From: a virus | DNA length: 24,754 nt | Reading direction: 5' to 3' (one strand) | Virus record (IMG/VR): IMGVR_UViG_3300042868_005963 | Coordinates: 1-24,754 of that record | Shown: positions 3,169 to 15,957 of the stretch, piece by piece | Numbering within the stretch: the first letter of the stretch is position 1 | How the letters are laid out: every line of letters starts with the position of its first letter | The notes under the pieces: model-generated | What the model was told of the DNA's origin: nothing | Seen by the model: the letters and a program-made list of their open reading frames with translations, nothing else | Databases searched by the model: none | Translations under genes and position numbers: made by a program

Positions 3169-3876
3169 ATGTCTAAATATAAGTCGGTATTAGTAATATC
3201 TGATCTTCACATTCCTTATCATCATCCTGACGCATTTGCTTTTCTTAAAGCATTAAAAACTAAATACAAGTTTGACCATGTAGTTAATATAGGTGATGAG
3301 TTAGATCAACACGCTATATCTATGCACGAACATAACCCAGACTTATATTCTCCTGGACATGAATTAGAGCAAGCTAAAAAGCACGTAAAAGAATTAGAAA
3401 AAATATTTCCTAAGATGGTCTTAGTTCATTCTAACCATAGCTCTTTAGTTTATCGCAGAGCGTTAAAGTATGGACTTCCAAAGGCATATTTAAAACACTA
3501 TAACGAGTTTTTAGGGGTAGGAAAAGGCTGGGAGTGGGTGGATGACCACACAATAACATTAAGTGATAACTCTAGGTGTTTCTTTACTCACGGCCTCTCT
3601 GCAGACGTTTTAAAGGTAGCCCAGCAGTATGGAATGAATACAGTCCAGGGTCACTATCATACTAAATTCAGTATTGGATATTACAGTAACCCAGATGCAC
3701 TAATTTGGGGAATGCAAGTGGGTTGTTTAATACATCAAAAGTCTATGGCGTTTGACTATGCCAAAAACTTTAAGAGCAGGTTCATTGTAGGATGCGGTGT
3801 AATTATAAACGGACAACCTAAATTAATGCCTATGGTTCTTAACACAAACGGTAGGTGGATCGGAAAAATAGCATAG
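3169..3876 (+). CDS. Calcineurin-like metallophosphoesterase (235 aa)
   Basis: The motif series of the metallophosphoesterase superfamily is present in order: D-x-H in SDLHIP (Asp12, His14), GDELD at 42-46 (Asp43), SNHSS at 88-92 (Asn89, His90) in place of the usual GNH, THG at 140-142 (His141) and GHYH at 161-164 (His162, His164). These are the two-metal ligands and the catalytic His position. The length fits a stand-alone domain. The gene has a clear AAGGA ribosome binding site about 6 bases before the ATG. The substrate is not readable; phage members have been proposed to act on nucleic-acid or nucleotide phosphoesters. It lies after the lysis genes in the + strand group. Confidence 0.85.
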   Translation: MSKYKSVLVISDLHIPYHHPDAFAFLKALKTKYKFDHVVNIGDELDQHAISMHEHNPDLYSPGHELEQAKKHVKELEKIFPKMVLVHSNHSSLVYRRALKYGLPKAYLKHYNEFLGVGKGWEWVDDHTITLSDNSRCFFTHGLSADVLKVAQQYGMNTVQGHYHTKFSIGYYSNPDALIWGMQVGCLIHQKSMAFDYAKNFKSRFIVGCGVIINGQPKLMPMVLNTNGRWIGKIA

Positions 3877-8018: not shown

Positions 8019-8372
8019 TCAATAAAATATATGGTTACCTATTGCCACTTTAACTGGTTTATTATTAGCCCATGTAGGTTTAATATCTTTTCTATGAAAA
8101 TATATTGCTCCTTTTGTGGGATCTTTTACTTTTTTATGAAGCACATTATACGCCATGTTTAAATAAGGTTGCAACTGAAATTTTGATGCCAGCTCAACAT
8201 TCCCTATAAAAGAAAATTGTTTTGGCTTATGTAGTTCGTTACATACGTTTTTAGTACTTTGCGCTCTATTAAGTAATACGTACATGACGGCCGTTTGGCC
8301 AGATGTAGGCTCGCCTCGGCTTTCATGGTAGGCTGCCAAGGCAAGGCAAAATGCTGCTGTTTCTATTCCCAT
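8019..8372 (-). CDS. SleB-type cell wall hydrolase (117 aa)
   Basis: The N-terminal half matches the SleB-type hydrolase domain: CLALAAYHESRGEP, with Glu17 as the likely catalytic acid in the AYHESRGE motif, followed by GQTAVMYVLLNRA, VC and QFSF. Proteins of this family cleave peptidoglycan glycan strands (lytic transglycosylase-like). The typical domain is about 110-120 residues, so this is essentially a stand-alone catalytic domain with no binding module and no convincing signal peptide. It starts with TAATG coupling behind AAAGGAG. Its place in the leftward early operon, away from the holin-like genes at 1626-2680, is unusual. Confidence 0.8.
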   Translation of the reverse strand: MGIETAAFCLALAAYHESRGEPTSGQTAVMYVLLNRAQSTKNVCNELHKPKQFSFIGNVELASKFQLQPYLNMAYNVLHKKVKDPTKGAIYFHRKDIKPTWANNKPVKVAIGNHIFY

Positions 8373-8641
8373 TATGAGTCTCCTTTTAAAGCATAATACT
8401 CATCATGACCAAACTTATGAATGAGCATATTTTCTATATGGTGTCTATCATATCCGGATAATATAAGACATATATCAGCTACAGAATTTTTTTCCTTCAT
8501 AAGCCAATTGTAAGACACCTTCCTATTATGCGTATTAGTACCGCATATCTCTGTTATGGCCTGGATCATTACGGCCATTAATAATTTACCTTCCGGTGTT
8601 AGTATAAGTTCTGATCTTAGTGACTCCTTTACCTCTATCAT
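8372..8641 (-). CDS. Small hypothetical protein upstream of hydrolase (89 aa)
   Basis: An 89-residue, mainly helical protein with no recognised motif. It contains GKLLMAVMIQAITEICG and a later HHIENMLIHKFGHDEYY segment. It is translationally coupled to the hydrolase gene. Upstream of its ATG there is only a weak AAGAAAG ribosome binding site, and then about 200 bases that hold pqqA on the other strand. Confidence 0.55.
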   Translation of the reverse strand: MIEVKESLRSELILTPEGKLLMAVMIQAITEICGTNTHNRKVSYNWLMKEKNSVADICLILSGYDRHHIENMLIHKFGHDEYYALKGDS

Positions 8642-8693: not shown

Positions 8694-8739
8694 CGATAAT
8701 GAAATGGCAATATTGCATTAATTAACCGAGGATAATATT

Positions 8740-8811
8740 ATGTGGACAACTCCAGCAGCTACAGAAATGCGTTTTGGCTTTGAAGTCACAATGTATGTAA
8801 TGAATAAGTAA
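8740..8811 (+). CDS. pqqA: PqqA: PQQ precursor peptide (23 aa)
   Basis: A 23-codon ORF with a GAGGA ribosome binding site about 8 bases upstream. The peptide starts MWTTPAATEMR and continues GFEVTMY, with Glu15 and Tyr19 spaced as in cellular PqqA (E-x-x-x-Y). These are the two residues that PqqE joins and that become the PQQ ring system. The MW-x-x-P-A start and the R-x-G-x-EVT-x-Y core match PqqA of Klebsiella at the same positions, and I recall Methylophilaceae PqqA as still closer. PqqA is used up by PqqE with PqqD and later PqqB/C, none of which are in this window. It lies alone, antisense to the leftward operon, suggesting its own promoter. I am confident in the identity. Confidence 0.93.
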   Translation: MWTTPAATEMRFGFEVTMYVMNK

Positions 8812-8829
8812 TGTGTATAGTGTGTATGG

Positions 8830-8853
8830 GGATGCTCCTAAAAAGGAACATCC
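8830..8853. terminator. Stem-loop between pqqA and the SSB-tail gene
   Basis: GGATGCTCCT (8830-8839), loop AAAA, then AGGAACATCC (8844-8853) form a 10-base-pair stem with one mismatch. It follows pqqA by 18 bases and overlaps the last codons of the converging leftward gene at 8838. There is no good T-run on either side, so it may be a weak bidirectional terminator, an RNA-stabilising hairpin or a transcription roadblock for colliding polymerases. Confidence 0.45.
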
Positions 8854-9074
8854 TCTTCACCTTCTACTGAAGGGCCACTTGGAGCATACTCACCTTTTGG
8901 TGTAATTTTACCTGTATAAACAGGTCTTTTAGATCCTTCTTCTACTTCATTTTTAAACAATGCTAATGTATATTCTTTACCTTCTACATTAAGCATTAAT
9001 GAAATATATTTATTTCCTGTTTTACTTTCACGTAGCCAACCTGCAGCTTTGTTACTATTATCGTACTCAGCCAT
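8838..9074 (-). CDS. Small protein with SSB-like acidic C-terminal tail (78 aa)
   Basis: The C-terminus reads EGEEDVPF, closely resembling the acidic tip of bacterial single-strand DNA binding protein (DDDIPF in E. coli), which recruits replication and repair partners. The first 55 residues are a compact beta-rich domain (GWLRESKTGNKYISLMLNVE, YTLALFKN) of the small single-strand-binding/DUF736-like texture, joined by a Pro/Gly/Ser-rich linker. The neighbouring YqaJ exonuclease and annealing protein genes support a recombination role. Either it is the phage SSB itself or a protein that mimics the tail of the host SSB. AAGGAG precedes its ATG. Confidence 0.7.
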   Translation of the reverse strand: MAEYDNSNKAAGWLRESKTGNKYISLMLNVEGKEYTLALFKNEVEEGSKRPVYTGKITPKGEYAPSGPSVEGEEDVPF

Positions 9075-9077
9075 ACT

Positions 9078-9626
9078 TTACTCCTTAGTAAAAATTGGTT
9101 TCTTAGTCCAGCGTTTAGGCTCTATGTCATCTTCAACATATTTTATAAACTCCAGCGCTAATGGCGTATACCATTCAAGCCATGCCTTACTTCTGTCTAC
9201 TACCTGTATCTTTGTTTCATTTGGCGTCCATATATAAAAATACGCATGAGGCATCTGACATACTTCCATTTGCATTTGCATTTGAAAGTAATAACGTTCA
9301 GGGATCTCTTTATATATTTCCTGAGTGTAAGGACATTTGATCTCAACAACATTGCCATCATAATATCCATCCGGACTTGCGCCAAACGGTAATTTGTCAT
9401 GTAACACAAACTTATTGCCAGGCTCTACAATGTCATTAAATTCTTTTTCTAATGCAGATAATGCAATAGCCTCATGAATATTACCGTATTCAGTCATCTC
9501 ATTGCCTTCAAATGGAGGCTCACGTAAAGTCATTTGACGCCATAACTTTTGCCTTTCATATACTGCCGACCAGGCAATACTAGCCGTAATAACGTTATGA
9601 CGCCTATTATCACTTAAATGGCTCAT
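9078..9626 (-). CDS. YqaJ-type recombination exonuclease (182 aa)
   Basis: The protein shows the YqaJ/lambda-exonuclease-like PD-(D/E)XK pattern: a GN-x-HE element (Glu52, in YGNIHEAIAL), GASPDG (Asp86), a strand with Glu95-x-Lys97 (VVEIKCPY) and a Gln-rich helix (YYFQMQMQMEVCQ) supplying the downstream motif. The family digests double-stranded DNA ends 5' to 3' and delivers single strands to an annealing protein. The partner is the gene immediately upstream, which it overlaps by 4 bases (ATGA). The length is normal. Function would be phage recombination and replication in the cytoplasm. Confidence 0.88.
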   Translation of the reverse strand: MSHLSDNRRHNVITASIAWSAVYERQKLWRQMTLREPPFEGNEMTEYGNIHEAIALSALEKEFNDIVEPGNKFVLHDKLPFGASPDGYYDGNVVEIKCPYTQEIYKEIPERYYFQMQMQMEVCQMPHAYFYIWTPNETKIQVVDRSKAWLEWYTPLALEFIKYVEDDIEPKRWTKKPIFTKE

Positions 9627-15008: not shown

Positions 15009-15256
15009 TCAAAAAAGGTAAAGAAACATTCTCAGGTTATAATAAACCTAAGAGAACTCCGAGTCATCCTACTAAGTCACATGCAGTATTGGCTAAAGAG
15101 GGTGACACAGAGAAACTTATACGTTTTGGACAAAAAGGTGTAAGTGGCGATAAAACAAATACAGATAGAGCCAAGTCATTTAAAGCAAGGCACGCAAAGA
15201 ACATTGCCAAAGGAAAAATGTCCGCAGCATATTGGGCTAACAAAGTTAAGTGGTAA
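15005..15256 (+). CDS. Small basic phage protein, RHAKNIAKGKMSAAYWA type (83 aa)
   Basis: The 83-residue product contains THPTKSHAVLAKEG-like (TPSHPTKSHAVLAKEGDTEK), LIRFGQKGVSG and SFKARHAKNIAKGKMSAAYWA, then NKVKW at the end. I know this set of motifs from short unannotated genes near terminase in several tailed phages. It is basic and probably binds nucleic acid or a head protein. Its stop overlaps the GTG start of the glycosyltransferase by 7 bases. Confidence 0.75.
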   Translation: MIKKGKETFSGYNKPKRTPSHPTKSHAVLAKEGDTEKLIRFGQKGVSGDKTNTDRAKSFKARHAKNIAKGKMSAAYWANKVKW

Positions 15257-15957
15257 AGCTAGATATATATGTAGGATATGATGGCAAGGTAGAACCAATT
15301 GCTTATCATAACTTTTGCCAGTCAGTTATAGAAAAGTCATCTATACCGGTAAGTTTTACACCATTAGCATTAAATACCCTTAAAGACTACGAAGAAACAC
15401 ATAAAGACGGTAGTAACGCATTTATCTACTCACGCTTTCTAGTGCCATATCTAAATAACTTTAAAGGTATCGCACTATTTGTAGATGGCGATATGATATG
15501 CCGAACAGATATTGCACAGATCCTAGCAAACTTCGACAATGACGAAGCAGTTAAAGTTGTAAAGCATAACTACACAACAAAGCATCCAGTTAAATACTTA
15601 GGTGCAAAGAACGAAGACTATCCTAAAAAGAATTGGTCTAGCGTCATACTATGGAATTGTGGACATTGGTTAAACAAACAGTTAACGCCTAAGTTCATAC
15701 AAGAAAAGACAGGACAATACCTTCATAGGTTCGAGTGGTTAAAATACCCTGAAGAGCAAGTAGGTAAGCTAGATGAAACATGGAACTGGCTAGAAACAGA
15801 ATACGAATACAACGAGGATGCTAAGTTAGTGCATCACACATTAGGCACACCATGCTTTAAAGACTATCAGAATACAGACTATAGTCAAGAATGGTGGGAA
15901 ACATATCAACGGATGATCTATCCACTTAAAGGTAAAAACAGGGAAAGCGAGTTATAA
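15250..15957 (+). CDS. GT-A type glycosyltransferase (235 aa)
   Basis: The GTG start at 15250 overlaps the previous stop by 7 bases. The N-terminus LDIYVGYDGKVEPIAYHNFC is a nucleotide-sugar-binding start typical of GT8-like enzymes, and FVDGDMIC (Asp79-Gly80-Asp81) is the metal-binding DxD. Later SSVILWNCGHW and KYPEEQVGKL are acceptor and fold elements, and VHHTLGTPCF near the C-terminus may supply a His ligand for the metal, as in GT8. The enzyme transfers a sugar from a nucleotide donor. Its acceptor could be a virion protein or a host-surface glycan; placement between late small genes and terminase favours virion modification. Confidence 0.75.
   Translation: MVKLDIYVGYDGKVEPIAYHNFCQSVIEKSSIPVSFTPLALNTLKDYEETHKDGSNAFIYSRFLVPYLNNFKGIALFVDGDMICRTDIAQILANFDNDEAVKVVKHNYTTKHPVKYLGAKNEDYPKKNWSSVILWNCGHWLNKQLTPKFIQEKTGQYLHRFEWLKYPEEQVGKLDETWNWLETEYEYNEDAKLVHHTLGTPCFKDYQNTDYSQEWWETYQRMIYPLKGKNRESEL

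Follow-up and report, generated by a model that had tools for sequence, protein, structure and literature searches.

A stand-alone pqqA gene in a phage of a probable methylotroph, shared with several unrelated methylophage groups and probably feeding host PQQ synthesis

Cyanophages carry host-derived photosynthesis genes (psbA and others) that replace a fast-consumed component during infection and are under purifying selection. OM43 and Methylopumilus-type bacteria oxidise methanol, which in oceans and lakes amounts to a notable carbon flux, and the main PQQ enzymes of methylotrophs are XoxF and MxaF. In the synthesis of PQQ, PqqE cross-links a Glu and a Tyr of the PqqD-held precursor peptide PqqA, and PqqF/G, PqqB and PqqC finish the cofactor (PMC10906245). 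A phage pqqA was reported in 2020 from a T4-like population of Lake Baikal (VP_266), a predicted Methylophilaceae virus in which the gene stands beside a methanol dehydrogenase gene and was read as an auxiliary metabolic gene (AMG) for methanol oxidation; the same authors stated that Methylophilaceae phage P19250A carries none of their AMGs (PMC7678222). A 2026 reservoir survey includes viral pqqA as a bare list entry without analysis (PMC13188868). That phages can have pqqA was thus known already.

Here we describe pqqA in a 24.8-kb phage record (IMGVR_UViG_3300042868_005963; hereafter the window, meaning the whole stretch analysed), with matches to terminase, portal, helicase, exonuclease and an endolysin-like protein. 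In contrast to the T4-like VP_266 with its methanol dehydrogenase, pqqA stands by itself in the window and in almost all the copies that we found, which come from unrelated small phages. Like cyanophage psbA, pqqA would be a host-derived replacement of a fast-consumed component under purifying selection; psbA replaces a damaged protein, whereas the product of pqqA would be a peptide converted chemically to a cofactor. Judged against open-licence PMC papers (other reports may exist), what is new is how widely the gene occurs, its form as a stand-alone cassette, its fixed position antisense to its neighbours, the evidence for selection and the unrecognised copies in isolate genomes.

The gene occupies positions 8740–8811 on the plus strand (23 codons and a TAA stop) and translates to MWTTPAATEMRFGFEVTMYVMNK. 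A ribosome-binding site, GAGGA (8728–8732, plus strand), lies 7 nt before the ATG, so that the 23-codon ORF with a ribosome-binding site given in a preliminary description of this DNA is confirmed. That description had also identified the peptide as PqqA with Glu15 and Tyr19 at the family's spacing. Both curated profiles agree: the peptide scored 40.3 bits against Pfam PF08042 (cut-off 21.1, E = 3e-10) and 38.8 bits against the NCBIfam equivalog TIGR02107 (cut-off 20, E = 5.6e-10), and in the translation the PqqE cross-link pair, Glu15 (8782–8784) and Tyr19 (8794–8796), has the E-x3-Y spacing of PqqA. With 23 residues and an MWTTPA start, it fits the W-x-x-P leader and the 22–29-residue length of the family. 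The signature W..P...E.T.Y was found in one of the 117 ATG-initiated ORFs of 18–30 aa in the window, namely pqqA, and in none of 32,817 such ORFs from 200 shuffled windows. A chance ORF was rejected on these scores and on the absence of the signature from the shuffled windows. Judged by its sequence, ORF 8740–8811 of this phage is a true pqqA.

The gene lies on the plus strand, within the 196 nt that separate two minus-strand ORFs, in agreement with the earlier claim that it lies on the opposite strand. The ORF on its right (8838–9074, 78 aa, minus) has a distant homologue in MW202481 (tblastn, 44% over 39 aa) that is annotated as a single-stranded DNA-binding protein, and is followed by a RecE-like exonuclease gene (9078–9626, minus; phrog_434, E = 7.6e-21), which serves as the conserved right-hand landmark. 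The left neighbour (8372–8641, minus, 89 aa) had no family match, and beyond it lies a gene for a cell-wall hydrolase or endolysin-like protein (8019–8372, minus; phrog_938, E = 5.9e-16; 37% to P19250A_0041). The ‘early operon’ proposed previously suits the SSB-like ORF and the exonuclease on the right but not the endolysin-like gene on the left; since the minus-strand block is mixed, the term is only partly apt.

Among 50,697 phage records, megablast of the whole window returned one match, of 81 nt at 93.8% identity, to P19250A, which spans exactly the pqqA gene. Using tblastn against INPHARED, the window’s peptide was found at 100% identity in P19250A, contrary to the Baikal statement, at 96% in a spring-water contig, at 91% in MEP301 and Venkman, at 83% in MEP401/402 and at 73% over 22 aa in four Melnitz isolates. 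The peptides of the cultured small phages (P19250A, MEP301, MEP401/402 and Venkman) are thus 83–100% identical to the window’s over 23 residues, and each of the seven distinct pqqA-bearing phage genomes tested passed the PF08042 cut-off. No other true phage with pqqA was found by tblastn among the ~50,700 INPHARED records, and queries with Klebsiella-type and Methylorubrum-type PqqA added no further true phage from INPHARED. Matches to ‘Acinetobacter phage MD-2021a’ (CAKLQF020000010.1, with the pqq operon, fur and ppk, and CAKLQH020000055.1) were set aside; because the first of these contigs has fur, ppk and pqqBCDE, it is a bacterial chromosome mislabelled as phage.

Some of the pqqA-bearing methylophages have almost no DNA in common with each other, and several cultured ones place pqqA beside early recombination genes, as in the window. 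The phages most closely related to Venkman and to MEP301 infect SAR11 and are absent from the set of carriers, so the gene tracks the host and not the phage lineage. All the kinds of cultured methylotroph phage that we checked have pqqA, which suggests that viruses commonly feed the PQQ supply of their hosts; the methylophages counted are those surfacing in INPHARED, without MEP431–434, which like Venkman EXVC038S are present in the taxonomy. The gene is thus present in complete isolate genomes, and none of the records of P19250A, MEP301, MEP401/402, Venkman, Melnitz or the spring-water contig annotates it; nor do the publications describing MEP301, MEP401/402, Melnitz and Venkman mention it. 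The unannotated gene in P19250A (KX815270.1, 28082–28153, minus) encodes a peptide identical to the window’s. In Melnitz and the spring-water contig, an antisense ORF was called in its place; such hypothetical ORFs overlie pqqA at about 76137–76205 of MZ577097.1 (Melnitz) and at 2119–2187 of MW202481.1.

IMG/VR yielded more than 120 further viral copies. These were collected with degenerate DNA patterns, which bias counts; we therefore used two complementary patterns, and relatives of the terminase and polymerase for an unbiased estimate of frequency. A back-translation pattern for GFEVTMY matched at least 120 IMG/VR loci, and all 120 among the matches listed were complete PqqA ORFs. With the second pattern, which specified only the N-terminal part and left residues 15–23 free, every complete viral copy kept Glu15 and Tyr19, the single exception in the set being an ORF of only 13 residues.

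The preliminary description had expected pqqA in related phages, and it is indeed carried by contigs of the window’s lineage and by five other methylophage groups. Within the lineage, 19 contigs found via terminase are 20 kb or longer, and 16 of them have the gene. The three negatives (L320, L329 and L357) stop 3–7 kb upstream of terminase and do not reach the place of pqqA; where a contig extends 10 kb or more upstream of terminase, the gene was present in 15/15. In lineage contigs covering the region, pqqA is always antisense and beside the exonuclease gene. Across all viral loci where it was detected, the exonuclease lies to the right of pqqA and antisense to it (61/61); in some loci it is only ~27% identical, and the PqqA peptide there is still 91–100% identical. 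The left neighbour (8372–8641 type) is likewise to the left and antisense in all 18 loci where it was detected. Outside the window’s lineage, in contigs of at least 30 kb, pqqA was present in 5/9 of the P19250A type, 5/7 of the MEP301 type and 0/1 of the MEP402 type. A close relative of P19250A (97% terminase identity, colinear at ~81%) is without 154 bp (P19250A 28087–28240), comprising pqqA and 87 nt upstream; pqqA and its leader therefore behave as one removable cassette.

The 191 viral copies comprise 156 DNA versions and 65 peptides, and the window’s peptide is encoded in 26 ways among viruses. Third codon positions vary freely. From 146 distinct 72-nt viral sequences we obtained pN = 0.095, pS = 0.58 and pN/pS = 0.16, statistics for which the extraction pattern itself required W, P and GFE, as it did for the promoter statistics below. 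Because the pattern fixed these residues, the claim of residue conservation draws instead on reading of the pattern-listed ORFs and on the N-terminal-pattern set. These substitution patterns show that pqqA is under selection for the protein it encodes.

A Shine–Dalgarno-like word occurs at −16 to −5 in 157/157 non-redundant viral copies. The word BATAAT occurs at −80 to −30 in 55% of non-redundant viral copies compared to 18% in shuffles (maximum 24%). In the window, GATAAT (8695–8700, plus strand), 45 nt before the ATG and with no recognisable −35, is a tentative −10 box to which this enrichment across viral copies points; a generic sigma-70 scan returned no promoter upstream of the window’s pqqA. 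Viral leaders also tend to fold, with a mean z of −1.1 at −50 to −8 versus −0.2 at −100 to −58, and −0.8 in hosts. The hairpins and palindromes are sequence-diverse, lie between the −10 box and the ribosome-binding site (for example, ATATACAT/ATGTATAT in P19250A) and are weaker in the window; speculatively, they may protect or stabilise a very short mRNA or bind a regulator. Downstream of pqqA, a hairpin without a T-run (GGGGATGCTCCTAAAAAGGAACATCCTC, 8828–8855; RNA fold −22 kcal/mol, z = −3.0) overlaps the 3' end of the opposing ORF, and repeats resembling it follow many pqqA copies of the window’s lineage, making it a possible two-way terminator.

The host of the window’s phage is very probably a Methylophilaceae methylotroph. 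pqqA was present in 149 of 150 Methylophilaceae genomes, at 1–12 copies each, and the other pqq genes are typically single copy beside multiple pqqA (PMC4109929). Hosts thus show the same dosage logic as the phages, with pqqA multi-copy and the other pqq genes typically single. The window’s peptide is, letter for letter, the commonest one in our host set (69/125), which was picked by the PqqA C-terminus and includes some contigs that look viral; one of these, a bacterial MAG contig (L239, CAIYXB010000030.1), aligns to P19250A across the pqqA region and is probably phage DNA binned with its host. Window and Methylophilaceae peptides have in common the Glu/Tyr pair, the W-x-x-P leader and the GFEVTMY core. 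Unlike Methylophilaceae pqqA, the phage gene is isolated from other pqq genes, and viral copies mostly have their own leader and −10-like box. The presence of pqqB–E beside pqqA is usual, not defining. DNA similarity between phage and host usually covers the coding sequence and 10–20 nt upstream, including the ribosome-binding site, and then mostly stops.

We searched for further parts of the pathway in 41 pqqA-bearing phage records and found no pqqE or pqqC above cut-off, with host genomes as the positive control for the pqqC profile; the window has no PqqD match. A whole pqq operon on the phage was rejected on these results for pqqE and pqqC. Methanol dehydrogenase was also discarded as a partner gene, being present in just one of the 41 records (TIGR03075), and a XoxF motif search in the viral loci returned no match. 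As is asked of an auxiliary gene, pqqA lies in a bona fide phage genome, has a host homologue and is under selection at the protein level. Purifying selection, host specificity and the absence of other pqq genes strengthen the inference that it is an AMG.

We consider it likely that pqqA is a one-gene auxiliary metabolic cassette, which refills the one component that PQQ synthesis uses up, the host’s catalytic pqq enzymes meanwhile persisting. During infection a weak promoter of its own would drive transcription of the gene, and the mRNA would be translated; host PqqD/PqqE would cross-link Glu15 of the phage peptide to Tyr19, and host PqqF/G, PqqB and PqqC would complete PQQ. These enzymes, being catalytic, would turn over and outlast host shut-off, while PqqA would be spent at one peptide per PQQ molecule and would therefore be the sole part needing to be made again. 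By bringing this consumable only, the phage would keep the XoxF/MxaF methanol dehydrogenase loaded and energy flowing. Several points count against the cassette: pqqA is not universal outside the window’s lineage; in Acetobacter, pqqAB alone raised PQQ by only 29% compared to eight-fold for pqqABCDE (PMC7936290); and PQQ import is possible in many bacteria (PMC12124388).

Other readings of the same gene were weighed against PQQ supply. The peptide might act as a decoy that occupies PqqD/PqqE, lowers host PQQ and slows or redirects host metabolism, for which the conserved PqqD-binding leader and the 65 distinct phage peptides against 12 in hosts, unevenly sampled, could be cited. A decoy needs neither Glu15 nor Tyr19, yet both are invariant in complete viral copies even where the search left them free, and the window’s peptide matches the most frequent host PqqA of the sample in every residue; we regard a decoy as very unlikely. 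Selfish or neutral capture, in which host pqqA often strays into phages and persists without benefit, would account for the presence/absence polymorphism seen where the P19250A relative is without the 154-bp segment. It sits poorly with the low pN/pS, the invariant catalytic residues, the fixed position by diverged neighbours, the enriched −10 boxes and the occurrence in several unrelated phage groups, and seems to us highly improbable. PQQ supply could also be right with a benefit other than methanol oxidation, such as redox protection or another PQQ enzyme, given that the phage genome gives no hint as to which enzyme uses the PQQ and methanol dehydrogenase is confined to that one record. This version is unlikely, if less remote: the known phage hosts are methylotrophs, and no INPHARED phage of other PQQ users carries pqqA.

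Two further readings were weighed as well. Short phage sequences identical to the host are often att sites, and pqqA is small and multi-copy in hosts, which would suit an attP copy that rebuilds a host pqqA upon integration. No match to tyrosine integrase (PF00589) came from the window or from a further 16 records, which include seven isolate or complete genomes; the host similarity covers the coding sequence and ribosome-binding site and mostly ends there; and selection acts on amino acids and not on nucleotide identity. We rejected integration, which has barely any probability left, on the lack of an integrase match in the 17 records and on host identity not extending past the gene. Were the conserved feature an RNA element rather than the peptide, the hairpins enriched in the 5' leaders of viral copies would fit, whereas the window’s transcript from −10 box through ORF folds less stably than its shuffled versions (z = +1.4), third codon positions are free and the pqqA region has no Rfam match; for these reasons it was rejected as extremely improbable.

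Beyond the cassette itself, we lean slightly towards a wider reading, in which stand-alone pqqA is a signature gene of methylophages, present in at least five unrelated groups and missed for its length. It would imply that what limits phage growth on methanol is the supply of the consumed precursor rather than that of PQQ enzymes or methanol dehydrogenase, and that phages meet this limit in the same way as their hosts, which amplify only pqqA. If methylotroph phages routinely carry the PQQ precursor, viruses would directly tune methanol carbon flux, and a one-peptide gene would be a cheap means of doing so. A common auxiliary gene escapes gene callers that impose a minimum length, complete isolate genomes included, and AMG surveys are therefore blind to peptide-precursor genes.

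Several observations concern individual genomes. The record with a dehydrogenase (IMGVR_UViG_3300025120_009955, 72 kb) carries, besides pqqA, a PQQ alcohol/methanol dehydrogenase at 34049–35731 (628-aa frame, 608 bits) and resembles the Baikal viruses. A 52-kb contig (IMGVR_UViG_3300028027_000073) has two different pqqA copies, at 1936–2004 and 40826–40894, from either a real duplication or a chimeric assembly. In the window, a possible family-8 glycosyltransferase, scoring below cut-off, lies just upstream of the packaging genes (15250–15957, plus). A calcineurin-like phosphoesterase (3169–3876, plus), 77% identical to MEP301 gp11, is a second gene common to otherwise distant methylophages.
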